Assembly (NCBI GenBank): GCA_902801845.1
Contig: CADCJW010000004.1
Span: forward strand, 195,936 to 259,935
Direction: 5' to 3'
DNA from: an uncultured Eubacteriales bacterium
Lineage (GTDB): Bacteria; Bacillota; Clostridia; Christensenellales; CAG-138
DNA: 64,000 nt
Part shown: positions 35,299 to 50,313 of the stretch, in pieces
Numbering within the stretch: position 1 is the first letter of the stretch
How the letters are laid out: the number at the start of each line of letters is the position of its first letter
Position numbers and translations under genes: made by a program
The notes under the pieces: model-generated
Seen by the model: only the letters and a program-made list of their open reading frames with translations
Database searches by the model: none
Told to the model about the DNA's origin: nothing

Positions 35299-36792
35299 TT
35301 AATCCCTCCTGAACAAATCGCGGGTATACACCTTGTCCTGCACATCATCTAAAACCGGATCATACCGATTGGCGACGATGCACCCGCACATCTTTTTGAA
35401 CCTCTCCAGATTATTGACGACCCGCGACCCGAAGAATGTACTGCCATCTTCCAGGGTCGGCTCATAGATGACCACGGTGGCCCCTTTAGCCTTGATCCGC
35501 TTCATCACGCCCTGGATGGCGCTCTGCCGGAAATTGTCGCTATTGCTCTTCATCGTCAGGCGATACACCCCCACCACGGTCTCCTTCTGCCGCACTTCCT
35601 GATCATTGCTGAAAGAGGCCGAAGCCGTATAGGTCCCGGCGATCTCCAACACCTGATCCGCGATAAAATCCTTCCGGGTACGGTTGCTTTCTACAATTGC
35701 ATGGATCAAATTCTGGGGAACGTCACGATAATTCGCCAACAGCTGCTTGGTGTCCTTGGGCAGGCAATATCCGCCATAGCCAAAAGATGGATTGTTATAG
35801 TAATCTCCCACCCGAGGATCCAGGCAAACGCCTTTGATGATCGGTGCGGTCTCGAGATGCTTCACTTCCGCGTAAGTATCCAGCTCATTGAAATAGGATA
35901 CCCGCAGCGCCAGATACGTATTCACAAACAGCTTCGTCGCCTCTGCCTCAGTGGGCTGCATGAACAACACGGGAATGCCGATCTTCACAGCGCCTTGCTG
36001 CAGCATTGCGGCAAAGGTTTCAGCGTTATCTCTGTTCTTCTCGTCCGCTCCAACGATAATCCGGCTGGGATAGAGATTGTCGTAAAGCGCTTTTGATTCC
36101 CGCAGAAACTCAGGGCTGAACAGGATATTGTCCATTCCCAGCCTTTCTCGGGCAGAAACCGTGTATCCCACCGGTACCGTGGATTTGATCACGATGACGG
36201 GCTTTTTCTCCTGCCCAAAGGTCACATCTCGGATCTGTTTCAGCACGCTTTCTACTGCAGAGCAATCAAAGAAATTGGTCTTGGGATCATAATTGGTGGG
36301 GGCGGCCACGACGATATAATCCGCCTGTGCATAGGCTGAAGCTCCGTCCGTTGTGGCACGAAGGGATAAACCACGTTCCTCGTGTTCGGTCAGGAACCTC
36401 TCGATGTAAGCATCCTGGATAGGACTCTCCCACCGGTTAAGCTCCTCAACCTTAGCCTCGGCAATGTCCACCGCGGTCACGTCGTGATGCTGAGAAAGAA
36501 GCACTGCCAAAGACAACCCCACATAGCCCGTTCCGGCGATCGCAACCTGCTTGCGCGGCACCGAAACGACCGCTACGGACTCGTCCCGAATGACTTCATC
36601 CAAAGAGAAGCCAAGCACTTCTGCCAAACACAGCAGCTGATCTACCGAAGGCGTGTACTCTCCCCGTTCCAATCCGGATACCTTGCTGCGGTTGATACCG
36701 GTCTTCACCGCCAGCTCCCTCTGGGAAAGCCCCAAGGCTTTTCTGCGTTCGCTCACCACCTGAGCAAATAGAGATACAGATACCTTTTTCAA
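35299..36792 (-). CDS. UDP-glucose 6-dehydrogenase with N-terminal XRE helix-turn-helix
   Basis: This 497-residue protein joins two domains. Residues about 8-66 form an XRE helix-turn-helix ([20 protein letters not shown] then [20 protein letters not shown]). From about residue 80 a full UDP-sugar dehydrogenase follows, with [14 protein letters not shown] for NAD and catalytic Cys in [16 protein letters not shown]. The TTG start at 36792 is chosen because GGAGGG lies six bases upstream; the longer ATG at 36840 has no such site. The dehydrogenase part oxidises UDP-glucose to UDP-glucuronate. The helix-turn-helix may let the enzyme control its own operon. Confidence 0.83.
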
Positions 36793-36882
36793 ACGAATCC
36801 CTCCATGTGCGTTGCTCATACTGACAAAAAAAGGAAGCAAGCTATGGGCTGTTCTTCAGCCGCTATCGACAAGGAAATATCG

Positions 36883-38373
36883 TTACATGGCCCCTTTTCG
36901 GTTCAGCACGACCCATACGGTTTTGAATAGAATCTGAATGTCCCGCTTGAGAGACCAGTTTTCGATGTATTCCCGATCCAGGCGAACCACCGTGTCAAAG
37001 TCGCGTATTTCACTGCGTCCGCTGACCTGCCAAAGGCCGGTGATTCCCGGCTTTGTGGACATTCTGGAGCGGTGAAAAGGTTCGTACCGATGCCACTCAT
37101 CCACCGTGGGCGGGCGTGTTCCGACCAGAGACATATCCCCCTTCAGAACATTGAAAAACTGAGGGAACTCGTCAATGGACAAACCTCGGATCCAGCCACC
37201 AACGCCTTTTTTCCATTTTCCGTTGGAAAGCTGCTTTTGGCCGATGATGCGCGGGTCATGCTCCAGCTTGAACATGAGTTGATCTTCCTGCCCGCTTTCC
37301 AAGGCCAGCTGCTTCTTCCGCTCTTCCGCATCCATATACATGCTGCGGAACTTGTACATCTGGAACTTTTTCCCGTTTTCACCGATCCGGGTCTGTGTGA
37401 AAAAGATCGGTCCAGGATCAGACAGCCATATCGCCGCCGCAATGGGAGGCGTAAGAATGATCGTAACCAGCGCGCCTAGCAATCCGCCTGCTATATCCAT
37501 GACCCGCTTTAGGAAAACATCGCGGCCTGTGATGTAGCCCAGGGAAGTCGTGATCGTCAGATGACCACAGATCCATTCCACATTCTTATGTCTGGATTCG
37601 ATCTCATCCAGATTCGTGAGGGATGTGTGGATGGTTATCCCCATGCGCATGAGACTGTTGATCAGATCTACAGGCAGATTGGCTTTGGGCGGCACATCCA
37701 GATACACCTCGTCCACCCAGTTGTTGGTCAGGTACTGCTCGAGCGTATCGGTCGTCGCAACGATAGGGATCGTTTCAAGTTCCGGGTACTCCTCCCACAG
37801 AGAACGGAGTGCCTGCCGTGCCTCCTCTTCGGAAGGGTCGGCACCCATTATTGCAATGCCGATGAACCGGTACGACCCATAATTCGATCGGAGAAGGCGC
37901 GGGATGACTGAGAGGATCTGAGAAGTCTCCAGCGCGATAAGCATGGAATGCCGATTGAGAATGTGGTGTTTTTTCTTCAGAAAGCTTTTGTACGCCTGAC
38001 GCATGATGTAACAGGAAACAATATACAGCGGCACGGCATACAACGCGATCTTCGAAAGCCCGTTATCACTCGTCTGATTCAGCAACTGTAAAACCAGAAG
38101 GATAAGGATCACGCGCCCCGTCTGACCGAGAAGCCGGGTCATCTCATCCCATGGCGAATGATGCAGCACGCTGTGGTAGGTATCCAGGCCGATCATCACG
38201 ACCAGGTTCACAAGGACAGCTTCCAAAACCAGCCGCCAGAAGAAGAGGGAACCCAGTACCCCATCCTTTTTAACCAGCAAAAACCCTGCCAAAAGGCTGA
38301 GAAAAAGGCAAAGATTGTCCAAAAGCATGAAATCAATATGCTGGGACCAGCCGCGTAGTCTTCGTTTATACAT
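36883..38373 (-). CDS. Polyprenyl glycosylphosphotransferase (initiating sugar transferase)
   Basis: This 496-residue membrane enzyme has about four N-terminal helices, a CoA-binding-like central domain and a fifth membrane segment (AGGLLGALVTIILTPPIAAA). The C-terminal catalytic domain has FFTQTRIGENGKKFQMYKFR, GLSIDEFPQFFNVLKGDMSLVGTRPP and KPGITGLWQVSGRS. This is the WbaP/CpsE type that transfers a sugar-1-phosphate from UDP-sugar to undecaprenyl phosphate, the first step of polysaccharide repeat-unit assembly. Confidence 0.92.
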   Translation of the reverse strand: MYKRRLRGWSQHIDFMLLDNLCLFLSLLAGFLLVKKDGVLGSLFFWRLVLEAVLVNLVVMIGLDTYHSVLHHSPWDEMTRLLGQTGRVILILLVLQLLNQTSDNGLSKIALYAVPLYIVSCYIMRQAYKSFLKKKHHILNRHSMLIALETSQILSVIPRLLRSNYGSYRFIGIAIMGADPSEEEARQALRSLWEEYPELETIPIVATTDTLEQYLTNNWVDEVYLDVPPKANLPVDLINSLMRMGITIHTSLTNLDEIESRHKNVEWICGHLTITTSLGYITGRDVFLKRVMDIAGGLLGALVTIILTPPIAAAIWLSDPGPIFFTQTRIGENGKKFQMYKFRSMYMDAEERKKQLALESGQEDQLMFKLEHDPRIIGQKQLSNGKWKKGVGGWIRGLSIDEFPQFFNVLKGDMSLVGTRPPTVDEWHRYEPFHRSRMSTKPGITGLWQVSGRSEIRDFDTVVRLDREYIENWSLKRDIQILFKTVWVVLNRKGAM

Positions 38374-38432: not shown

Positions 38433-39467
38433 TCATGGCTGTTTCGCTTGTTTTTCTTGCTGTCTGACCCTGACCGCACAAAGAAGCATGGCCGGCAGAT
38501 ACAAGTGCATCTTAAGCAGGAGCATAACGGCTCCCACCTTTGGGGGCAAACCTTTCACAGTCACAAATGAAAGCATATCCGATTTACGAAGCCCTTCCTT
38601 CAGATGCCGTGCGGCTTCCCGCAAAGAGGGATCCGTCTCAGCGCGCCACTTTCCTGTACGGATGATCAGCATGGCGGCATATTCGTTGAGCTGACGGTCT
38701 ACAGCCGGTCCGTTTCCACCCATATGCTCCCGCATATATATGATTAAATAGCGAAAGCTCTTTGTCAATAGGTTCTCCCTGCTCTTTGCGCGAATGGAAT
38801 CCTCGTTGGTTTTATTGTACATATACAGACGTTCGTTGCATATATACACGTTTCGGCAGTGCAGAAGGCATTCATAGGTCATGGGCACATCGGTGAAAAC
38901 ACGGATCCTTTCCTCCCGTGTATAGTGTTCCAGCAGCAGTTCCCGCCTGAACGCCTTGTCCCAGGTATGCGCCTGAATGACGCCGACCTGAAGTCCTTTC
39001 CTCGTATCCGTAAGGAGAAAGGGGATGATCTCCTTCTCCAGCCTTGTCCTGTCGTAAAACCCTTCAGGTACATTGTTGAGGGTCGCTTCCAGATGATCCT
39101 CATATACGCTGCTTGCCGCGAACAGCACCATATCCAAAGACACTGGAGACCGCGACACCGTTTCATGGATAAATTGCAGCATGTTTTCAAGCGCCCAGTC
39201 ATCCCCGTCCACGATGCAGACGTAGTCCCCTTTTGCGGCGAGTATCCCCACGTTTCGGGCAGAGATCAACCCGCCGTTGGGTTTGTGTATCACCCGCACA
39301 CGGGGATCCAGGCGTGCGTATTCATCACAAATCTGCGGGCATCCGTCCGGCGATCCGTCATCGATCAGGAGCAGTTCAAAATCCGTATAGGTCTGAGAAA
39401 GGATGCTGTCCACGCAGTGCCGCAGATATTTTTCCACCTTGTACACAGGCACGATTACGCTGATCAT
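38433..39467 (-). CDS. Family 2 glycosyltransferase
   Basis: This 344-residue protein has the GT-A fold. ISVIVPVYKVEKYLRHCVDS and LLLIDDGSPDGCPQI are at the N-terminus, and the metal/UDP-binding DxD lies in YVCIVDGDDWALENML near residue 90. A single hydrophobic C-terminal segment may associate with the membrane. It adds one sugar to the lipid-linked repeat unit; donor and acceptor cannot be read from sequence. Confidence 0.9.
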   Translation of the reverse strand: MISVIVPVYKVEKYLRHCVDSILSQTYTDFELLLIDDGSPDGCPQICDEYARLDPRVRVIHKPNGGLISARNVGILAAKGDYVCIVDGDDWALENMLQFIHETVSRSPVSLDMVLFAASSVYEDHLEATLNNVPEGFYDRTRLEKEIIPFLLTDTRKGLQVGVIQAHTWDKAFRRELLLEHYTREERIRVFTDVPMTYECLLHCRNVYICNERLYMYNKTNEDSIRAKSRENLLTKSFRYLIIYMREHMGGNGPAVDRQLNEYAAMLIIRTGKWRAETDPSLREAARHLKEGLRKSDMLSFVTVKGLPPKVGAVMLLLKMHLYLPAMLLCAVRVRQQEKQAKQP

Positions 39468-39541: not shown

Positions 39542-41095
39542 TTATGGCGTCGAATCGATCTTTGTCCCTGATTTGGGCAGGATGCTTCTTTTTATTTGTG
39601 CAAGGCTATCCCTCAATAGGGGGTTGCGTCCGAAGAAAACAAAGTAGCATAGATTCGGCACCGTGAAGCTCATTACGGCATTCAGGATAAGAGATCCCCA
39701 TACATTCAGAGAAAACAGACCGCATACAAACCATGATGCCGCGCAGGAGATCAAAGCGACTGCCGTTAATCCGCAGAAGAGCCGCACAAACCTCCCTCTG
39801 TTCGCGCGGGGAAACACCTCCAGAAACAGATTGCGGAACAGCCATGGAATCTGAACGAGAACGATGGAGACAACGGAGGAAAGGAGCACCCCGTACAATC
39901 CCAGCCATTGTACCGTCGCCAGGTTCAGGCCCAGATTCACCAGCGCCGCGGTTAAAGGCCGCCAACGGTCCATCTTCCAAATGCCCGCCGAGTCTTTAAA
40001 CATATTGAGAAGTTTGTTGGCTCCCATGGAATAGTAATACACAACGAAGCAAAACACAAATCCGATGGCAAGCATATTGTCCTCGCCCATCCAGATTTGC
40101 ATGAATGGCTGGTACAGGCAGAGCAGCATGGAACTGCTCACGCCCAGTAGCCAGCAGAACAAAAGACTTATCTTTTCAAGATCCCGGTAATTCGAGTCCT
40201 TGCTTTCCATAACCAGCTTGTTGCCTACGCCTGCCATACAGGCGTTGAGGATTATGACCAGCATCATGCGTAGCGCAGTGATAATGAAATAGTAATTCTG
40301 ATAGAGCGCTAAAGCGCTCAACCCCATGAAGGCAGAAATCACCAGCGTATCTGCGGAATCGAAAACCGTAGCGGACAGCTTCGACGTGAACAGGTCCCGC
40401 ACCCTGCGGAAGATATCCCGTGTTTTTTCCTTCGGCAGCTTCCCGACCGGCACGTACTGGGGATACATCTTCGAAGCGCATACCGCGGTCAGAACGTTTG
40501 TGACGATCTGGCACAGCAGTTGGACGGCCAGAAACAGATAGTAATTCCGAGTAAAGACAAGGATCAGGATCTTCAGGATGTATTCCGTCAATCGCACGGC
40601 AATGCTGACTTTGCTGATCATGTCCCGCCGCTGATGCGCCTGCAGCAGACTTCCCTTGTATGCGAACAGCCAATACGTCAGCACCGTGTTGCCGAGGTTC
40701 ATTAGATACAGGACATACAGATTCATCCCTGCGGGCAGATCGTCCCTGATGAGGATGTGCAGAACGGGTATTATAAGCAGTCCGACCGCCGCAATCGCAA
40801 GGCCGATGATCCTGTATAACGTCCGGTACAGCCGCAGCAAGGCGCAGATTGCGGGGGTGTCGTCCTCTGCGATCGGCTTGTACATACTGAACACCATCGC
40901 ACTGCCCACACCGAGCTCCGCCAGGTTCAAAAACATCAGGAGCGACTTGAACAAGCCGTTCAGGCCCAGATACTGCGTTCCCAGATAATGTAGCATTACG
41001 GAACGAATGACGAAAGGAAACAGCATATTGACCGTTTCCTGTATTCCGCCGAACACAATGTTTCTTGCTGCGTTTTTAGTTCGTTCAAGCTTCAT
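39542..41095 (-). CDS. Polysaccharide flippase (Wzx-like)
   Basis: This 517-residue protein has about 12-14 membrane helices with short loops, as in the MOP/PST exporter superfamily. It begins MKLERTKNAARNIVFGGIQE, and the first helix pair includes NMLFPFVIRSVMLHYLG, typical of O-unit and teichoic-type flippases. It should move the undecaprenyl-linked repeat unit across the membrane. It lies between a family 4 and a family 2 glycosyltransferase gene. Confidence 0.88.
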   Translation of the reverse strand: MKLERTKNAARNIVFGGIQETVNMLFPFVIRSVMLHYLGTQYLGLNGLFKSLLMFLNLAELGVGSAMVFSMYKPIAEDDTPAICALLRLYRTLYRIIGLAIAAVGLLIIPVLHILIRDDLPAGMNLYVLYLMNLGNTVLTYWLFAYKGSLLQAHQRRDMISKVSIAVRLTEYILKILILVFTRNYYLFLAVQLLCQIVTNVLTAVCASKMYPQYVPVGKLPKEKTRDIFRRVRDLFTSKLSATVFDSADTLVISAFMGLSALALYQNYYFIITALRMMLVIILNACMAGVGNKLVMESKDSNYRDLEKISLLFCWLLGVSSSMLLCLYQPFMQIWMGEDNMLAIGFVFCFVVYYYSMGANKLLNMFKDSAGIWKMDRWRPLTAALVNLGLNLATVQWLGLYGVLLSSVVSIVLVQIPWLFRNLFLEVFPRANRGRFVRLFCGLTAVALISCAASWFVCGLFSLNVWGSLILNAVMSFTVPNLCYFVFFGRNPLLRDSLAQIKRSILPKSGTKIDSTP

Positions 41096-41141: not shown

Positions 41142-42308
41142 TCAATCCGTCTTTACTGTTTCGATTCGGCACTCCAAAAGCGTGCGGTACAGTTCGTGCG
41201 TCTTGGCAGTGATATCCTGCCAGGTGTATTTTGAGGAGACCGTCTTACGAGCTTCAATGCGAAGCTCCTCCGCCCTTTCAGGATGATCGCACAGATCCTG
41301 CAGTGCTTCCCGCAAAGCTCCCGCGCTCCCGCGAGGAAAAGTAATGCCGCAGCCGTTCATGACATCCGCGCACTCACCGATGTCAGAAGTCACACAGCAG
41401 CATCCGTAGTTCATAGCTTCCAGAAGCGTCAATGGCATCCCTTCCAGATCGCTCGGCAATACATACAAGTATGCATTGCTGTACAGCTCTTCCAGGACAA
41501 GCCCCTGCTGGAAACCGGCAAAGATGATGGAAGGATTGTCCTCTGCCATTTCCTGCAGGCTCTTCACGTAGTCGTCTGTGTCCGATGTGCGGCCGACTAT
41601 CACCAGCTTTTTATCCGTCGACAGCTTCTGATAGGCTTCAATGAGATAATGAATGCCCTTCTCCGGCACCAGCCGGCCCAGGAACAGGATATAGTCCCTC
41701 GAGGAAAGCCCGAAAAGCTTCGTGATCTCAGAAGCAGGGCGGATCTCAGCCGGATCGATCCCATTAGGGATCTGCACGGTGTCCCGTCCGTATTTTTCCC
41801 GGAAATACGCCTGCACGCCCCTGGACAGCACAATGATGCTGTGCGCGTAGCGGACAGCCATCTTCTCACCCAGCATGATATAAGCGGAAGCGAACTTTCC
41901 CCATTTCTGCCGCTGATGATCGAGTCCATGGATCGTAACCACCACCTTCTTGCCCAGCAGCCTCGGCAGCCAGCAAATGACGCACGGTCCTTCCGTATGG
42001 AAGTGGACCAGATCAAAGCGACGGAAAGAAGCCATCACCGTCGCAATGATAGATGAAGACATAGCCGCCAGCCCGCGGCGGTCAACGGTCGGCGTCCAGA
42101 CCAGATGGACGCCCCGGTGTTCCCGCGGCAGCGGAGCGCTTTTCCGCATCTTTTTGAATTTCTTATTCGTCCGGTTATAGCAGGTCACGTCATATCCGAT
42201 CTCCGTAAGATGCGGCGCCAGGTTGCTGACGACAACCTCCACGCCTCCTTCACGGGAAGGAATAAACTTGTGCCCGATCATCGCGATCCGTTTCGATGCT
42301 TTCTGCAT
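41142..42308 (-). CDS. Family 4 glycosyltransferase
   Basis: This 388-residue protein has the GT-B fold. An N-terminal acceptor domain (IAMIGHKFIPSREGGVEVVV) is followed by a C-terminal donor domain with LFLGRLVPEKGIHYLIEAYQ and the E-x7-E signature DLEGMPLTLLEAMNYG. The ATG at 42308 is chosen because TGGAG is about seven bases upstream; an ATG 12 bases earlier is possible. It retains the sugar configuration when adding to the repeat unit. The sugar is unknown. Confidence 0.88.
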   Translation of the reverse strand: MQKASKRIAMIGHKFIPSREGGVEVVVSNLAPHLTEIGYDVTCYNRTNKKFKKMRKSAPLPREHRGVHLVWTPTVDRRGLAAMSSSIIATVMASFRRFDLVHFHTEGPCVICWLPRLLGKKVVVTIHGLDHQRQKWGKFASAYIMLGEKMAVRYAHSIIVLSRGVQAYFREKYGRDTVQIPNGIDPAEIRPASEITKLFGLSSRDYILFLGRLVPEKGIHYLIEAYQKLSTDKKLVIVGRTSDTDDYVKSLQEMAEDNPSIIFAGFQQGLVLEELYSNAYLYVLPSDLEGMPLTLLEAMNYGCCCVTSDIGECADVMNGCGITFPRGSAGALREALQDLCDHPERAEELRIEARKTVSSKYTWQDITAKTHELYRTLLECRIETVKTD

Positions 42309-42368
42309 GTTTTTCTCCATCTCTCCTTTACGCAGCAGCATGGCGGCCGATTTTTCCGGCCCCATCCG

Positions 42369-43505
42369 TCAGGGTTGCGGTCTGATCCCGGGATATGCGC
42401 GATCTGCCATCTCCAGATAGATCTCCTGCAGTTTCCGCGCTTCTGTTTGGATGTCATACCCCGCCCGGCGGACGATATCTCTCCCCTGGGCCCGGTCCGG
42501 TTTCAAGCGCCTCACTGCCATTATCTCCCCGGCCCACTCCATGTCCTCTGCCTGGAGGGATATCCTGCGAGCCTCTGTGGAAAGCAACACCTCGTCAGTG
42601 ACCCGGTCGGAGAAAAAGCACGGCAACCCTGCCGCCTGCGCCTCGATACCTACCACGGGAAGCCCTTCAAACAGCGAAGGCAACACGAAGCAGTCCATTG
42701 CCTGATACCATCCGCTGACATCGGCCATCTGTCCCAGGAAGAGTGTTTTGTCCTGGATCCCCATAGCCCGGGCTTTTTCTTTCACGGATTGCTCCAGTTC
42801 CCCTACGCCGATCAGGGCAAGCCGGGCGTCAGGGACGGCCTTTACGATCTCCGCGAATATATCCAAAAGGCGGCTGTGGTTTTTCTGAACGTTGAACCTG
42901 CCCACATGGCCGATCACAAAGCAACCATCAAGATCATGCAGCCGCCTCAGGCGGTCACGCTCTTCCTGCCGGAACGCGAATCTCGACACGTTTATCGCGT
43001 TGCGCAGGATGAATCCGGACTCCCTCCAGCGCTTTTCCCCGTAATAGTATATCCCCGCGTCCCTGCCGCAGCTCCAGTAATCCGTTGCCGCTCCAGGAAG
43101 GAGCTGCTTGCAGATCAGCTTCAGCGGATACTTGTAATCACGGATGATCTGCGTATTATGCGCGTGCGCGATGCGGACCCGGACCCCGGCGTCTTTTGCG
43201 CTTTTCAGGGCGTAATACCCCATAGCTTCGTTATGCGCGTGGACGATCTTTATCTCCGGGTCGGTATGCACCAGATCCGCCACAAACCGCTTGTATTTGG
43301 GAAAGTGCAGGGGGTTGAGACCCGGGCTGACAAAGACCCGCCCGTCCATGCGGCGGATCTCCTCGTCGTATTCTCCGGGAGCGGGTTTATTGGCCAGAAA
43401 ATCGAACTGGACCTGGCTCCTGTCCACCTCCCGGTAGTAATTCATCAGCATGGTCTCGATCCCCGCCCGCGCCATATTGCTGACGGAATGAAGTACACGT
43501 AGCAT
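42369..43505 (-). CDS. Family 4 glycosyltransferase (EpsF/CapM-like)
   Basis: This 378-residue GT-B enzyme begins VLHSVSNMARAGIETMLMNY, the EpsF-like N-terminus. Its donor domain has IGHVGRFNVQKNHSRLLDIF and SLFEGLPVVGIEAQAAGLPC with the E-x7-E pair. It is the second retaining glycosyltransferase in this operon and follows the teichoic-type transferase gene by 36 bases. Confidence 0.9.
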   Translation of the reverse strand: MLRVLHSVSNMARAGIETMLMNYYREVDRSQVQFDFLANKPAPGEYDEEIRRMDGRVFVSPGLNPLHFPKYKRFVADLVHTDPEIKIVHAHNEAMGYYALKSAKDAGVRVRIAHAHNTQIIRDYKYPLKLICKQLLPGAATDYWSCGRDAGIYYYGEKRWRESGFILRNAINVSRFAFRQEERDRLRRLHDLDGCFVIGHVGRFNVQKNHSRLLDIFAEIVKAVPDARLALIGVGELEQSVKEKARAMGIQDKTLFLGQMADVSGWYQAMDCFVLPSLFEGLPVVGIEAQAAGLPCFFSDRVTDEVLLSTEARRISLQAEDMEWAGEIMAVRRLKPDRAQGRDIVRRAGYDIQTEARKLQEIYLEMADRAYPGIRPQP

Positions 43506-43541: not shown

Positions 43542-44726
43542 TCATCTTCCCACAGCCATCTGCCGGAGGATCTGATATGTCCGCTCACAGTTCTGCGCGT
43601 CCCGGACCGGATAAAAAGCATCCAGGCGGTCGCGGTATTCCCGCTGCATCCGAAAACCGTTTTCGGCACATTCATACAAAGCGTTCAGCAGCGCTCCTTC
43701 CGTCATGACGACAGGTCCGAATCCATGCTTCTCATATGAGAAATATCCTTCCTGATAATGGTATTTCCGGAACTCATCCAGGTCGAACTGGTAATAGATC
43801 ACCGGCTTTTCCATGTAGCCTGCATCGAAAAACACGCTGGAATAATCCGTGATCAGCACATTGCAGCGCATCAGGAGGGTCTGGACATCATAGTCCCGCC
43901 AGCTTGCGAGAATGATCCGTTCGGAAGGCGACTTGAACTTGTCGAGCTCTTTCTGCAGCTCTATGTGAGGATAAAAGACTAGTTTGAGATCCCGCTCCTC
44001 AAGGAGGCTGAGCAGGCGCGGATTATCCAGCAGGGATTGGAACTGCCGGTAAAAAGCAGTTTCGAAAAAACGTTCCCCCTGCGGATAATCCGACCCGCGC
44101 CAGGTCGGCATCACAAGAATCTCCCCGGAGGGATCTTTTTCCCGGATCAGGTTGTCGAAACGGCATAGCCCAGTGTATTGAACGACGCCCTCCGGAAAAC
44201 CGAATTCCGAAACCAGGTAATCATATTCCATCTTTCCGCCGCTTGCGAAAAAATCGACCTTCAGGCGCGGATAGCGCATCCACATCATCTCATCCTTGAT
44301 GATGCCGTGCTGCAGAAAGATCTCCCTGCCCCTCGGACGGATCCCGATTTGTCGCAGATGATAATATCCCATCAGATCGGGAGCCCCGGGCTGTACATGG
44401 GTGCTGATCAGGTAATCGGCCGCCAGATACATCAGATAATGCTGTAGCGATCTCCAGTCGACGGTCCTGCCGAGCCGCGCGACCTTCGGGCAGTCTGGAC
44501 TTTCCGGATCGATCACATAGCATACATTGATCTCAGGATGCCGTTCCCGCAGATACCGAAAAAACCAGTATGCGTTATCCCTGGCGTCAAACCCTCGTTC
44601 CGTCACCAGCCAAACATGCCGGTACGCCTCGTTCGTTTTCCGCAGCACGGCAGCAACGGGCCATAGAACGGCAAGAAGAAAGACATTTTTCAGATAAACC
44701 GTCAATCGCTTCAGTTTATACAGCAT
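43542..44726 (-). CDS. CDP-glycerol glycerophosphotransferase-family protein
   Basis: This 394-residue protein belongs to the TagB/TagF family. A short hydrophobic N-terminal segment (VFLLAVLWPVAAVL) may dip into the membrane. LISTHVQPGAPDLMG, FLQHGIIKDEMMWM and the donor-site motif LITDYSSVFFDAGYMEKPV follow. Family members transfer glycerol- or ribitol-phosphate to polymers, so the polysaccharide may carry a polyol phosphate. The ATG at 44726 is preferred (AAGGAC upstream) and overlaps the preceding gene by 11 bases. Confidence 0.85.
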   Translation of the reverse strand: MLYKLKRLTVYLKNVFLLAVLWPVAAVLRKTNEAYRHVWLVTERGFDARDNAYWFFRYLRERHPEINVCYVIDPESPDCPKVARLGRTVDWRSLQHYLMYLAADYLISTHVQPGAPDLMGYYHLRQIGIRPRGREIFLQHGIIKDEMMWMRYPRLKVDFFASGGKMEYDYLVSEFGFPEGVVQYTGLCRFDNLIREKDPSGEILVMPTWRGSDYPQGERFFETAFYRQFQSLLDNPRLLSLLEERDLKLVFYPHIELQKELDKFKSPSERIILASWRDYDVQTLLMRCNVLITDYSSVFFDAGYMEKPVIYYQFDLDEFRKYHYQEGYFSYEKHGFGPVVMTEGALLNALYECAENGFRMQREYRDRLDAFYPVRDAQNCERTYQILRQMAVGR

Positions 44727-46053
44727 TTTTTGTCCTTCCCTCCATTTCAATCGCCCATATTTCGTCGGCTGATTCCTCCGGCGTCGGCGGACGCCATTTC
44801 CCCTGCGTTTCGGATTTCAAAACCCGATAGCTAAAACTCATGGGAATGAGTTTCAGGCCGATGCTGCACCAAAAATAGAAGGCGGTATTGTCCGTGAGAT
44901 ATGTCACTGTCATGTAGGCAAGGATCGCCATATACAAGAGACCGGTCTCCGTATTGTGTTTCTTTATCCAATATCTCGGATACACGATATAATTGATGCC
45001 AGCCCATAGGGTGAACCCCAATGCGCCGAGTTCAATGAAGATCTTGAGAATATCGTTGTGCAGCGGATACGCACGGTTGATGAGCCCTTCCCGATACCAC
45101 ATGTTCACAAGGTCCGTGACGCCTTCAAAGCCCAGTCCCTTCCATACAGGGGAAAGCTGATAGTAGTCGTTCGGCAGACGCCACAGTAGGTCGCGTCCCA
45201 TCATGTCGATCCCCAGCGATTCCAGGAACGCTACGAGGATGCCAGATCGCGTAAGGTAGAGATACAGGTAAAAAAACAGAAACAGACTGATGCCGGTCAC
45301 CAGAATAAACTTCTGCGTTTTTCGTGCCAGGCGAAGCAGTTTCACATAGATGCACACAAGCAGTACCGCCGGAAGCGTGCTGCGTTTCAATCCAACCAGC
45401 AGAAAGAAAAGGGAGAGGATCACGCCGCAGTACTTCACCCGTTTTTCCGCCTTCGTGTCCTTGGGTGCAAACATCATATAGTAGATGAAGAACTGTCCGA
45501 ACAGAAAGGTGATATCGTGAATCTCCAGCGCCCGCACAAACCCTTCCGCCGATCCGAAGGTGACGATACATTTCACTATGGACGCAACGCTCTCAACAAC
45601 CCCGTACTTGGGCATTTCCAGCAGCATAATGGCAGCGTTTGCTGCGCATATGCTGAAGAACAGATGATCGACGGCCTTTTCTTCAAACAGATAGCACATG
45701 AAGACCGCATAGATGATCGTGATCGTCTGAAACAGGATCTTCTGTCCCGCCCTGCTGATGGATGACGCCTGCGAGAAATCCGTGACCCAGATATACATGC
45801 TGATCAGGACATAAACAGCTATCAGGAGCAGATACATAGGGAAAAAGCCCACTGCCCTTTTCAGCTTTGCGAAATCAGCAACAACAAGGAAATGCAGGAA
45901 AGCGCAGACGATCGTCCCCAGCGCGATTACCTTCGGCAATCCTCCATATGCATTGTTGAGGACCTTCCAGTCCCCGAGGGCGGCCAGAACGGTGCACGCA
46001 ACGGCAAGGAAGGCGATGAATAACGGGCATTCCTTCTTCTTTTCCAGGATCAT
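44716..46053 (-). CDS. O-antigen ligase/polymerase-like membrane protein (Wzy candidate)
   Basis: This 445-residue protein has about ten membrane helices with one larger loop near residues 330-370 (LSPVWKGLGFEGVTDLVNMW), the layout of Wzy/WaaL-type polymerases. Sequence conservation in this group is low, so the call rests on topology and operon position next to chain-length-regulator-like genes. The ATG at 46053 follows GGAGGAGGAG; a longer start at 46071 is less likely. Confidence 0.72.
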   Translation of the reverse strand: MILEKKKECPLFIAFLAVACTVLAALGDWKVLNNAYGGLPKVIALGTIVCAFLHFLVVADFAKLKRAVGFFPMYLLLIAVYVLISMYIWVTDFSQASSISRAGQKILFQTITIIYAVFMCYLFEEKAVDHLFFSICAANAAIMLLEMPKYGVVESVASIVKCIVTFGSAEGFVRALEIHDITFLFGQFFIYYMMFAPKDTKAEKRVKYCGVILSLFFLLVGLKRSTLPAVLLVCIYVKLLRLARKTQKFILVTGISLFLFFYLYLYLTRSGILVAFLESLGIDMMGRDLLWRLPNDYYQLSPVWKGLGFEGVTDLVNMWYREGLINRAYPLHNDILKIFIELGALGFTLWAGINYIVYPRYWIKKHNTETGLLYMAILAYMTVTYLTDNTAFYFWCSIGLKLIPMSFSYRVLKSETQGKWRPPTPEESADEIWAIEMEGRTKNAV

Positions 46054-46182
46054 CTCCTCCTCCCGCACCACAGCAACCGAGTCTGTCGTCTACCGCAACC
46101 TGTCTCCGCGTCCTCTGTCTTTACAGGGGCCTCAGCATTATCTCCGTTTTCACCTAAGATTTCTTTTGAAACATGGGAAGTC

Positions 46183-47979
46183 TTATTTTTTGTCCATCCT
46201 CTGCATCGCAAGACGGAGCAGCTGTCTGATCTCAAAAACATTGTCCGCGCTTGATACAGCCTTCCCGCAGGTATAGCAGATCGTCTGCTCCGGGTTCACC
46301 GTGTTGTATTTTTGGACCTGCCGCTCGATCGCTTCCAAGATCACATCCGTCTTCTGCGGCGAACAATCCGGGAAAAACGTAAGGAAAACACCGCTGCCGT
46401 TATAGCCGACGAATCCATGCGAACCGCCGAAGCTCTTCAGAATCATCGCAAAGTCTTTCAGCACTGCATCGCCGACTTCGCGTCCGTACGTGCTTGATAG
46501 GCTGCCCAAAGAATCCATCCTCAAAGCCATGCAGGAGAAGTTCTCGTCGAGTATCCGCCCGGAGCTTTCGTTAATGAACACATCGCACTTTGCCCGGTTC
46601 GGCAGTTGCACGGTCTTATCGATATACCGGAAATAGTCGATAAAGTCGAGCGTTCTTCCCAGGAGGACAGCAATGATCCCCCCCACCACCAAGAACAGAA
46701 CGACTGCGATCGCGAGGTAGAGCTTGATGTTCACCGCCGGCTGTACGCTGATGCTGCTGACCATCGTCAGATAGTTTGCGCTGAGATAACGGTTCAGTTC
46801 ATGACCCGTATCCTCAACATACTGATAGTATTCCGTCGCCAGATCCGCGCAGTGCCCGATCTTGTCACGGATCTCTTCCTGCGTTGAGGCGTTGCCCTTT
46901 CCGCGTGCAGCTGAATCAAATATGGAAAGCAGATATTCCTTGTGCTCTTTCTCAATCGTTTTTTGACGGACGCTGATGTTCAGGTCCACATATTCCTGAA
47001 TCAATCCGTCATATGTCGTCTCTTTTTCCCCTTTTTCCCGGTTATATTCAACATCTTTCAGGATATACTCCGTACCAATCTCCTGGCCGGTTGAACTGTG
47101 ATAATGGTAATCCATTATTTCCTTGTTTCGTTCGCTGTACGTATCGATCAGCTTTTTCAGGGCACCGGCGCGTTCCTGTCTGTTTTCGATGTACAGCTGC
47201 GCATCTTCGCAGTCCATTGTCAAACGGCTCGTCAGTAGGTCGATATCGTTTGTTTCCGCATTGGTCAGAATCGAAGCATACAGGCTCGGGATCTCATAAT
47301 CGTATAGGAAGCTGTAGATCTGATACAGATCGTTGTATGTATATCCCGTTTCGACCGAGCGGAAATACGGGTAGCATGCTCGTTTATCCAACAGATAATC
47401 CAGCATCTCCGACACGGAATCGTCCAGCACCTGCGCGCTTTCCAGATAGTCATAGCTTCCTTCGGAAAGCACGGAGACCCCGTTGTTCTGCAGCGGCTGC
47501 TCAACATATTTCCCGGCATAGAACTCGTAGTAATTGTTGACGATCGCATCCAGCACATTCCACGCAAACTCCTCACCGGATTCGCTGTCACCGACATAAT
47601 TGACCCGGTATGTGTCCGCGACGTAGTTGGGCTGTTCTCCCTTTTCCAGCAGCGCGTCGTTTAGTTTCTGCTGCTCTTCCGGAATGACCTCTTCCGCATA
47701 GCAGTTGGAGCGGATGATGTCGATGCTGGACTCATAGCCCAGGTCCGTAAGGGCGGCGTCTATGACGGCCGGTGAAAAGATCTCTTCAACGTTCAGAGGG
47801 CTCCCGTCCGGCGTATACCCTTCTTTCGCCCCGCTGTTCGTGTATTGGATCACCGTGGACGCGATATAGCGCTGCTGAGATCTTCCATAGAAATATACGG
47901 TCAAAGAACCGATGACAGCCAGGAGCAGGATCAGCAGGCTGAACTGTTTCAGATAACGAAAAACGCTGAATTCTTTCAT
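46183..47979 (-). CDS. Wzz-like chain-length protein with C-terminal degenerate GGDEF domain
   Basis: This 598-residue protein has an N-terminal membrane helix (about 12-30), a long extracytoplasmic region with coiled-coil-like segments, and a second helix near residue 418-438 (LYLAIAVVLFLVVGGIIAVL), which is the Wzz/polysaccharide co-polymerase plan. After a short linker a GGDEF-like domain follows (DKTVQLPNRAKCD, then MRMDSLGSLSSTYGREVGDAV in outline). The active-site loop reads GSGVF in place of GGDEF, so diguanylate cyclase activity is not expected. The domain may bind a nucleotide or serve as a scaffold. Its ATG overlaps the preceding stop. Confidence 0.75.
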   Translation of the reverse strand: MKEFSVFRYLKQFSLLILLLAVIGSLTVYFYGRSQQRYIASTVIQYTNSGAKEGYTPDGSPLNVEEIFSPAVIDAALTDLGYESSIDIIRSNCYAEEVIPEEQQKLNDALLEKGEQPNYVADTYRVNYVGDSESGEEFAWNVLDAIVNNYYEFYAGKYVEQPLQNNGVSVLSEGSYDYLESAQVLDDSVSEMLDYLLDKRACYPYFRSVETGYTYNDLYQIYSFLYDYEIPSLYASILTNAETNDIDLLTSRLTMDCEDAQLYIENRQERAGALKKLIDTYSERNKEIMDYHYHSSTGQEIGTEYILKDVEYNREKGEKETTYDGLIQEYVDLNISVRQKTIEKEHKEYLLSIFDSAARGKGNASTQEEIRDKIGHCADLATEYYQYVEDTGHELNRYLSANYLTMVSSISVQPAVNIKLYLAIAVVLFLVVGGIIAVLLGRTLDFIDYFRYIDKTVQLPNRAKCDVFINESSGRILDENFSCMALRMDSLGSLSSTYGREVGDAVLKDFAMILKSFGGSHGFVGYNGSGVFLTFFPDCSPQKTDVILEAIERQVQKYNTVNPEQTICYTCGKAVSSADNVFEIRQLLRLAMQRMDKK

Positions 47980-49328
47980 GCTTCTTTCTCCTTTTTCTTG
48001 GAAAAGAATGTGCGCAGGAACACGCAGATGAATGCAGCAGCAAGGATCAGCGCGGCCAGGAGCAGCGACCCGATCAGGCCGGACCGTTCCGCAAAACCGG
48101 TGCCGTCATCGCTAAAGCTGAGATAGTTGCGTGCTTTTGTGCTGGTATACGAACTGTCTACCGTCTGGATATCCGCGGCAAGCTTTTCAAGCGATGTCTG
48201 TATCTCATCGAGCATGGCATCGGCCTTTTCCTTTTGAACAGAATCGGAACCGCTCGTCTTCAGCTTTTCCGTCAGATAGGTGTTGTATTCGATCCGTTCC
48301 AGCCGCTCCGTCGCACCTGTCAGCTGCATGTTCGCATGGAGCGCCATATTATCCATCCCTGTTTTTGTCCTGGACATATAATACTGCATCGTCTGATCCT
48401 GCGTAGGGATCATTACGATCGCGCTCATGGCGGTATCATACAGCCGGATGCCCTCGTTATCTTCATCGTATGCGGCGATCATTTTGTCGTACATCAGCCG
48501 GTCCATGCGGATTTTGTAGTTCAGCATGGTGTTCAGACTGAATCTGTCGTTCACGATGCCGTTTTCGATAATGTAGGAACGCGCCTTGGCTATGTCATAG
48601 GTGCAGAGGTTTTTCGCCCGCTGTTCCAGCGCGGAAAAGGTGAGCCCCGTGCCAGGATCCCGGTAGTTCTTGCTCTCCCGGTTGCGAAGCTGCACGTATT
48701 TTTCCAGCTGGCCGCATTTAAGCTCCAGCAAGTCGACCGTCATCACATATTCGTCATTGAATTTCAGATCGTCGACAGCAAAAGACAGGATTGAGTGATT
48801 GAACCCGTAGTGCTCCACAAAGTATTCGCGGTATGTCTTGCAGAGAAGGGACAGCATATCTTCCGCACTTCTATCTCGCACAGCGCCTTTGCCTGTGAAC
48901 TTAATGACAAAAGAAGTGCTGATATAGTTCTCGCTGACACTGACGGTTTTGTCGTGAGTTGCCTTTACGCTGATGCATTCGCTCAGTTCCTCCGGTGTTA
49001 TCTTCCCCTCCAGGCCCGCATATCCGATCAGCCGGCCCATTACTTCACTGCTCCGAATCTCGTAAATGCTGAACCTGGTCCCGTTGGGGGCAAGTCCTTT
49101 GGAAGCTTCCTCATAATCCAGCGACAGGACGGTGCTGGCTGTGCTGTGCGTATTCATAAGATACTGGACGCCGCACAACACCAGAGCAATGATCAGAAAG
49201 GCAGAGAGGACAAGACACTTCCGTTTTCGGAATGCCTCAAAAGCGCTTTGCAGGCTGTCGCGCCGTTTGCCGGGGATACCGGAGAAAGCTGCGTTCCGTG
49301 ATGCTTTCAATCTGTCTGTCTCTTGCAT
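47976..49328 (-). CDS. Wzz-like polysaccharide co-polymerase
   Basis: This 450-residue protein has a cytoplasmic N-terminus, a membrane helix (CLVLSAFLIIALVLCGVQYL, about residues 38-57) and a large extracytoplasmic domain. A second helix near the C-terminus (LLAALILAAAFICVFLRTF) and a basic tail follow. The pattern is that of chain-length regulators, although sequence identity to known Wzz is not obvious. It overlaps the next gene, which has the same topology plus an extra cytoplasmic domain, so the two may form a hetero-oligomer. Confidence 0.65.
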   Translation of the reverse strand: MQETDRLKASRNAAFSGIPGKRRDSLQSAFEAFRKRKCLVLSAFLIIALVLCGVQYLMNTHSTASTVLSLDYEEASKGLAPNGTRFSIYEIRSSEVMGRLIGYAGLEGKITPEELSECISVKATHDKTVSVSENYISTSFVIKFTGKGAVRDRSAEDMLSLLCKTYREYFVEHYGFNHSILSFAVDDLKFNDEYVMTVDLLELKCGQLEKYVQLRNRESKNYRDPGTGLTFSALEQRAKNLCTYDIAKARSYIIENGIVNDRFSLNTMLNYKIRMDRLMYDKMIAAYDEDNEGIRLYDTAMSAIVMIPTQDQTMQYYMSRTKTGMDNMALHANMQLTGATERLERIEYNTYLTEKLKTSGSDSVQKEKADAMLDEIQTSLEKLAADIQTVDSSYTSTKARNYLSFSDDGTGFAERSGLIGSLLLAALILAAAFICVFLRTFFSKKKEKEA

Positions 49329-49395: not shown

Positions 49396-50313
49396 TTATC
49401 GATTTACATCGATGACAACCAGTTCCGGAGAATTGTTGATCCTGGGCGGGAACAACTTGCTGTCACCGAGTCCCGCGCTGATGATCAGGGACTGCTGTTT
49501 GTCTAGTGTATATTTCCCTGCACATAGCTTCGGGAAAAAACCCTCTTCATCGGAATACAGCCCCCCGACGAAAGGGAGATTCACGATTCCGCCATGCACA
49601 TGACCCGCAATTCCCAAATCGAAATCGTATTCTGACAATTGCGATTCGAAGAGGATCGGAATATGGGTCATTACAATGCTATACGCATCAGGATCTATCT
49701 CCGTTTTTTCCATGAATTCCCTACCGCCGTATTGTTCGAATCCATAAGCGGTTCCTTCTATGCCGAAAAGCTGGATCCTGTTGCGTCCAACGTGTATATC
49801 CTCACGAGCGTTCCGCAGCAGTTTCAACCCCGCTTTTTCGAACTTTTCGGGCAGATCCCTGTCATTATTATAATATATCCTTTCGCTTTCGTGGTTGCCC
49901 AGTACGCCGTAGCAGGGCGCTATCGCGGTAGATTCCGTAACAAGATCCAGCACGGATTGATACTCCTCCTGTTCACGTATTACCATGTCACCGAGGAAGA
50001 GGATAAGGTCTGGTTTCAACGCTCGAAGGTCGGAAAGAAGCGCTTCGCTGTGTTCTCCGTATTCGCGGGTATGAATATCGGAGATGACCGCGATCCGAAT
50101 ATTGCTGTCAACCTTTGGGGATGTTTCCTGATAAAAACTGATTTTGTAGTGCGTTCTGTACCGTAATGCATAACCGGTCATGATGGCACCGCAGACGAGT
50201 GTCAGAAGAAGCAAAATGCCAAGAAGCCGAACACACGTTTTCCAAAATCCGTGTTTTTTCTTTGCATCGTTTGCAGTTGCTCTTTTCGAAACCAACTCAG
50301 TCCCCGTTTCCAT
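49396..50313 (-). CDS. Membrane-anchored metallophosphoesterase
   Basis: This 305-residue protein has an N-terminal membrane helix (VRLLGILLLLTLVCGAIMTG) followed by a calcineurin-like phosphoesterase domain. The metal ligands appear as AVISDIHTREYG, LFLGDMV, VLGNHES, MTHIPI and GHVHGGIV, in the family order. The active site should face outside. It is the first gene of the exopolysaccharide operon, so it may act on a lipid-linked or phosphate-bearing intermediate; this is context only. Confidence 0.87.
   Translation of the reverse strand: METGTELVSKRATANDAKKKHGFWKTCVRLLGILLLLTLVCGAIMTGYALRYRTHYKISFYQETSPKVDSNIRIAVISDIHTREYGEHSEALLSDLRALKPDLILFLGDMVIREQEEYQSVLDLVTESTAIAPCYGVLGNHESERIYYNNDRDLPEKFEKAGLKLLRNAREDIHVGRNRIQLFGIEGTAYGFEQYGGREFMEKTEIDPDAYSIVMTHIPILFESQLSEYDFDLGIAGHVHGGIVNLPFVGGLYSDEEGFFPKLCAGKYTLDKQQSLIISAGLGDSKLFPPRINNSPELVVIDVNR

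Follow-up and report, generated by a model that had tools for sequence, protein, structure and literature searches.

A co-polymerase-like membrane protein with a degenerate GGDEF domain in Wzx/Wzy-type polysaccharide loci of Clostridia

Among described systems, the capsule co-polymerase Wzc (PCP-2) and the CpsC-CpsD pair of Gram-positives most resemble the protein reported here, a second co-polymerase-like protein (PCP2) with a C-terminal GGDEF domain. Shared features are two membrane helices, a large extracytoplasmic domain of the same predicted fold, a Wzx/Wzy locus, and a cytoplasmic regulatory domain after the second helix. The present family differs in that a GGDEF or EAL domain replaces the BY-kinase, with no match to TIGR01007 above cut-off near the loci. 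It also differs in having a tandem partner (PCP1) and a metallophosphatase, and in scoring below the Pfam Wzz cut-off. LapD and FimX offer a parallel of another kind. Both have catalytically degenerate EAL domains that keep their ligand residues, as appears to be the case in nine of 11 EAL-bearing relatives of our protein. LapD and FimX have no co-polymerase part and different outputs, which sets them apart from the EAL and GGDEF forms of PCP2 alike.

In the available portions of PMC8461298, c-di-GMP is described as directly controlling sugar-polymer machines, namely the cellulose, alginate, Pel, and PNAG synthases. According to the same text, the alginate co-polymerase Alg44 carries a PilZ c-di-GMP domain, and is in this sense a co-polymerase with a c-di-GMP-type domain like ours. 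It differs in that the domain is PilZ, not GGDEF, and in belonging to the alginate synthase pathway instead of a Wzx/Wzy one. PelD (P. aeruginosa, B. cereus) and PssE (Listeria) are degenerate GGDEF receptors in exopolysaccharide operons that bind c-di-GMP through an RxxD I-site (available portions of PMC8461298, PMC7112168, and PMC4125290). As described there, they resemble our protein as membrane proteins with a dead GGDEF domain belonging to a polysaccharide machine, and differ in binding through the RxxD I-site, which is absent in the PCP2-GGDEF family. In the accessible portions of a 2025 review on capsule chain length, c-di-GMP comes up solely in connection with synthase-dependent systems, and GGDEF goes unmentioned. 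Searches of open-access papers, judged by title and abstract opening, yielded no co-polymerase fused to a GGDEF or EAL domain. As its novelty rests on open-access literature, we provisionally consider the PCP-GGDEF fusion previously undescribed.

The locus and the co-polymerase half

The stretch of DNA analysed (the window) comprises 64,000 nt of contig CADCJW010000004.1, positions 195,936 to 259,935; window coordinates are used below. PCP2-GGDEF, which a preliminary description had taken for a Wzz-like co-polymerase with a degenerate GGDEF domain, lies in a Wzx/Wzy-type polysaccharide locus with the following genes:

36883-38373, minus strand: initiating sugar-phosphate transferase (PF02397, 200 bits)
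38433-39467, minus strand: GT2 glycosyltransferase (Pfam)
39542-41095, minus strand: Wzx-like flippase (PF01943, 38.7 bits)
41142-42365, minus strand: GT4 glycosyltransferase (Pfam)
42369-43505, minus strand: GT4 glycosyltransferase (Pfam)
43542-44750, minus strand: CDP-glycerol glycerophosphotransferase family, TagB/F-like (PF04464, 139.7 bits)
44716-46071, minus strand: Wzy-like polymerase / O-antigen ligase family (PF04932, 33.1 bits, cut-off 31.7)
46183-47979, minus strand: PCP2-GGDEF, co-polymerase-like with a C-terminal degenerate GGDEF domain (598 aa, exact ORF)
47976-49328, minus strand: PCP1, 450-aa tandem co-polymerase-like partner without a cytoplasmic domain (topology; PCP2-profile match 5.8e-27)
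49396-50313, minus strand: calcineurin-like metallophosphatase with an N-terminal hydrophobic segment (PF00149, 64 bits)

PCP1 lies upstream of PCP2-GGDEF, overlaps it by 4 bp, and has the same topology. The two genes adjoined in all 28 loci with at least 1.4 kb of upstream sequence, the window included, and the metallophosphatase was close by in 27 of 28 GGDEF loci, the exception (L010) having only 1.5 kb of sequence. For this count L006 and L104 are one locus, and L016 and L017 are near-identical. PCP1 and the metallophosphatase were likewise present in all 11 genomes carrying an EAL form of PCP2. Both in the window (49396-50313) and in all related loci, the metallophosphatase accompanies the PCP pair whatever the tail. 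An ORF at 35299-36840 (minus strand; start codon set mechanically) reads as a putative fusion of a helix-turn-helix domain (HTH_3, residues 31-82) to a UDP-glucose/GDP-mannose dehydrogenase.

Pfam revealed no BY-kinase domain in the window protein. TIGR01007 (BY-kinase) scored above cut-off in 13 of 20 carrier genomes, and near the PCP2 locus in none of the 20. Only in G271 did a match fall on the locus contig, 0.68 Mb or more away. The window's own genome had no TIGR01007 match above cut-off. It also encodes a further PCP pair in tandem (495 and 535 aa; L176:1985-5073, on G000:C4, outside the window) that has neither a GGDEF nor an EAL domain.

Within PCP2-GGDEF itself, the following parts were assigned:

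47878-47940, minus strand: membrane helix 1, residues 14-34 (AlphaFold2 helix 14-34 at pLDDT about 80; hydrophobic sequence)
46729-47877, minus strand: extracytoplasmic co-polymerase domain, residues 35-417, ~380 aa (fold comparison)
46645-46728, minus strand: membrane helix 2, residues 418-445 (AlphaFold2 helix 418-455; sequence)
46192-46626, minus strand: degenerate GGDEF domain, cytoplasmic, residues 452-596 (PF00990, AlphaFold2, Foldseek)
46384-46410, minus strand: remodelled active-site hairpin VGYNGSGVF, residues 524-532, replacing (a)RyGG[DE]EF (alignment)

The modelled topology is that of co-polymerases, with two membrane helices around one large extracytoplasmic domain of ~380 residues. 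This domain begins with an alpha/beta part followed by long helices, and its middle has a pLDDT under 50 in AlphaFold2. Modelling of the full-length protein with 17 close orthologues gave low confidence (pLDDT 60.9, pTM 0.40), weak in the helical middle; much of residues 11-150 was near pLDDT 80. Wzc chains were the top Foldseek matches to this model (E 2.8e-5), with WzzE among the matches listed, and Wzc was also the best row in VIA-align (Z 14.2, 4.9 A, 182 residues). The latter alignment spans model residues 1-444 and Wzc residues 17-452, such that the GGDEF domain starts where Wzc continues into its kinase. The predicted fold is therefore that of a PCP (Wzz/Wzc), with moderate support since the pLDDT of the model is only 60.9.

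Comparison by sequence was less generous. The window protein had no match to Pfam PF02706 (Wzz), and the best relatives seen in full scored 17-19 bits against a curated cut-off of 25.5. A Wzz match at E 0.05 or better was obtained for eight of 19 N-terminal family rows (best 0.0009), while no other Pfam family matched more than two of the 19. Classical Wzz proteins have a proline-rich segment before helix 2. This segment is absent here, with a single Pro in the window protein (SVQPAVNIKLY) and none in several relatives. A PDB sequence-profile search with the PCP half recovered no PCP and only weak matches to unrelated helical proteins. Given the predicted fold and locus context, the sub-threshold Wzz score, and the lack of a PCP in the PDB profile search, we therefore call the window protein a co-polymerase by fold and context, outside Pfam Wzz. 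The earlier label holds in the sense of a Wzz/Wzc-like fold, and not in that of a classical Wzz by Pfam score.

A GGDEF domain stripped of catalytic residues

The preliminary description had recognized GGDEF landmarks (DKTVQLPNR) after the second membrane helix and an active-site loop, GSGVF, without the Asp-Glu pair. Both readings were borne out. PF00990 matched residues 452-596 at 1.8e-13, its 51 bits being well above chance relative to the cut-off of 23.8, and GGDEF was the sole Pfam family found in the 598-aa protein. DKTVQLPNR corresponds to residues 454-462, and GSGVF occupies the GG[DE]EF position. AlphaFold2 applied to the C-terminal 155 residues alone (17 alignment rows) predicted a GGDEF fold and no different one (pLDDT 82.7, pTM 0.78). 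The best 50 Foldseek matches listed for this model were all GGDEF-containing structures, and the GGDEF chains of LapD and FimX were among the fold matches. A chance resemblance of the loop was rejected, as the domain's Pfam score is double the cut-off and its predicted fold is that of GGDEF domains. The domain is conserved among orthologues, being present in all 17 close relatives found and in the wider family. L023, the last of the 18 loci returned, was rejected as a distant relative; it encodes an unrelated intact cyclase.

To count residues, we aligned 39 family members together with 10 intact cyclase domains encoded in the retrieved loci, leaving out the partial proteins L020 and L021 (also omitted from the tree below). 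Roles were assigned from PleD-type cyclases, to which we take the positions to correspond. The catalytic Glu was present in none of the 39 members, the phosphate Lys in three, and the first metal Asp in 12, to the exclusion of the window protein. The GG[DE]EF loop, catalytic Glu, and metal Asp that define a diguanylate cyclase are thus not found in the window protein. The I-site was similarly depleted, its Arg being left in one of the 39 members and its Asp in two, and the RxxD pair before the loop occurred in no aligned member, window protein included. Other positions were retained or consistently replaced: the guanine-site Asp of GD was kept in 38 of 39, the His of GH was changed to Arg in 36 of 39, and the Asn before the loop and the last Phe of the loop were present in all 39.

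Across nine representatives under 65 percent identity, mean entropy was 0.96 for the loop hairpin and 0.90 for DKTVQLPNR. The former I-site segment stood at 2.03 and the remainder of the domain at 1.91; nine columns of the domain were invariant. Hairpin and GRxxGD positions ranked among the most conserved, and beyond the domain start many of the top positions belong to former active-site motifs (R500, G503, D504, N527, G528, F532). Median dN/dS in 15 close orthologues was 0.165 for the GGDEF part and 0.127 for the ectodomain (defined for 100 and 104 of 105 pairs, respectively). On these alignments, the domain looks dead as a cyclase, yet kept under purifying selection.

Distribution, EAL relatives, and links to c-di-GMP

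Because the genome search scores only some candidates per genome, the following domain and riboswitch counts are lower bounds. With the window's own genome counted each time, full-length fusions were found in at least 4 of 103 genomes in the family (G038 matching in two pieces), at least 7 of 297 in the order draw, and at least 20 of 391 in the class draw. Carriers span 13 family-level groups of Clostridia. At phylum level, at least 6 of 398 drawn genomes had PCP2 at 1e-12; in the four that lie outside the class, the tail is short.

In at least 11 of the 391 class-draw genomes, the second helix of PCP2 is followed by an EAL domain, in the same place as GGDEF (assigned by Pfam for two genomes and by alignment for all 11). 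Under the residue roles that we presume from the alignment, all 11 rows kept the Glu and Arg of ExxxRW, the Asn, the Glu of the LE motif, the first Asp, the Lys, and the Gln. The second Asp was kept only in L088, and the AEG Glu only in L088 and L137. With these losses and the other motif residues kept, nine of the 11 domains look catalytically dead while retaining most ligand residues.

In the PCP2 tree (74 rows), all 39 GGDEF rows formed one clade and all 11 EAL rows another (SH-aLRT 99 each), with 20 tail-less rows scattered around them. PCP2 matches under 200 bits were left out, except for four PCP1 rows serving as the outgroup, and near-duplicates sharing an identical 150-residue stretch were removed (L017 and repeats of one gene under two ids). 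As several long branches meet in this tree, a single origin for each fusion is likely, not proven. Should the family sense a nucleotide, this one scaffold, found with a GGDEF domain, with an EAL domain, and tail-less, would amount to a natural experiment.

Riboswitches provide a further connection. Matches to RF01051 (c-di-GMP-I) numbered at least 17 in 20 genomes and at least 27 in another 37, or at least 44 in 57 carrier genomes. Twelve of the 44 found lay within 15 kb of the PCP2 gene and on its strand, where 0.24 were expected; the corresponding Poisson value is rough, since the 57 genomes were chosen as PCP2 carriers and related genomes are not independent. Ten of the 12 were upstream (G435, G113, G402, G688, G566, G479, G385, G622, G563, G668) and two downstream (G486, G585). 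By tail, seven accompanied EAL forms, three GGDEF forms (G435, G113, G486), and two tail-less forms; the association is strongest in the EAL group and weaker in the GGDEF group. In G566, G479, G385, G622, and G688 the riboswitch heads a run of GT2, initiating transferase, PCP1, PCP2-EAL, and metallophosphatase, while in G113 and G435 it precedes an EAL gene at the cluster head. RF01786 (c-di-GMP-II) gave at least 5 matches in the 57 genomes, one of them (G532) 286 bases before the first gene of a PCP-GGDEF operon.

Genes for c-di-GMP enzymes also occur in the clusters. Another GGDEF or EAL protein is encoded in 7 of 13 GGDEF-group 20-kb loci, and several clusters encode stand-alone EAL proteins. 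At L174:2045-3094 and L173:3081-5144, a c-di-GMP-I riboswitch followed by an EAL gene heads a polysaccharide cluster, and in L174 both are preceded by a gene whose cyclase loop looks intact. This arrangement is a possible feedback circuit.

Nearer to the window these features were sparse. None of the four carrier genomes of its family (G000, G039, G006, G038) had a c-di-GMP-I or -II riboswitch, Rfam had no match in the window, and the flanks examined in close orthologues contained no other GGDEF or EAL gene. The exception is G038, a distant member of the same genus, whose locus is adjoined by a cyclase-like gene and a GGDEF-EAL gene. The window's own genome encodes one intact-looking cyclase (loop RFGGDEF, RxxD I-site present) and had no PilZ match. 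It further encodes a receiver-GGDEF-EAL-GGDEF protein (G000:C7, around 96576-98339) in which the EAL domain looks intact and both GGDEF loops look altered.

Possible function of the fusion

We read PCP2-GGDEF as a Wzc/Wzz-fold PCP that is the second member of a tandem pair, in a capsule or exopolysaccharide locus of the Wzx/Wzy type, and whose dead GGDEF domain at the BY-kinase place would be a c-di-GMP-linked regulatory module (probability about 0.55). A dead but preserved domain suggests that the assembly of capsule or biofilm sugars is switched by a signal. In the mechanism that we infer, the remodelled pocket would be occupied either by a guanine nucleotide as ligand, such as c-di-GMP or GTP, or by a c-di-GMP enzyme acting as partner. 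Occupancy would change the packing of PCP subunits, and altered packing would in turn change Wzy polymerisation, and with it chain length or output. A direct link between nucleotide sensing and polymer length had been proposed in the preliminary description. Of this, the connection with nucleotide signalling gains indirect backing from the EAL sister clade, the riboswitches leading several operons, and the c-di-GMP enzymes in the clusters; nucleotide binding by the domain and an effect on polymer length would be further, putative steps. The RxxD I-site through which degenerate GGDEF receptors are known to bind is absent. More tentatively, Clostridia may possess a class of Wzx/Wzy co-polymerases in which an I-site-free GGDEF or, in the sister clade, EAL domain replaces the BY-kinase as the control of PCP assembly. 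Length or output would then be set by c-di-GMP or a guanine nucleotide in a new type of pocket (GRxxGD plus YNGxxxF), with riboswitches setting the expression of some operons.

The main rival is that the GGDEF fold is a mere scaffold for dimerisation or docking. With no small ligand involved, it would pack the PCP ring on its cytoplasmic face, or serve to recruit a glycosyltransferase or a phosphodiesterase. GGDEF domains can dimerise, the catalytic residues and I-site are lost here, and the stand-alone EAL proteins of several clusters are potential partners. We nevertheless regard a pure scaffold as rather unlikely, given that many of the most-conserved positions sit in former active-site motifs, and that both the EAL replacement in the sister clade and the riboswitches point to c-di-GMP.

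Three other explanations were rejected on residue counts, dN/dS, and distribution. A receptor that binds c-di-GMP at an I-site, as PelD and PssE do, would suit the type of locus and of domain, but is very improbable when the Arg and Asp never form an RxxD pair and the conservation of the segment that held them falls below that of the remaining domain. PelD is not a Wzz/Wzc-like co-polymerase, nor is PssE known to be one, a further difference between such receptors and the present family. Slimmer still are the chances of a decaying relic of the fusion event: loss of catalytic residues would be expected of one, but the median dN/dS of the GGDEF part is close to that of the ectodomain, and one fusion has been kept over 13 family-level groups with nine columns invariant. 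Only the fold speaks for an active diguanylate cyclase, which the missing Glu and the scarcity of the phosphate Lys and first metal Asp make scarcely credible.

If the PCP2-GGDEF family does sense a nucleotide, as the regulatory reading would have it, it would constitute a direct second-messenger switch for the Wzx/Wzy pathway that dispenses with tyrosine phosphorylation. It would probably also serve as an effector for those gut and rumen clostridia that produce c-di-GMP and have no PilZ match, an absence seen in one genome. On gut clostridia, this membrane protein probably governs the building of sugar chains.

Some relatives depart from the common layout. In one PCP-GGDEF member of 880 aa (L095:9678-12317), the GGDEF domain is followed by a long low-complexity tail. 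Degenerate GGDEF domains (GRNGGN[EK]F) also occur in stand-alone proteins of ~250 aa whose N-terminal part is hydrophobic, encoded at L109:9100-9840, L110:9562-10296, and L111:9642-10424. In L109, the gene sits between a PHP-domain gene and a transglutaminase gene.
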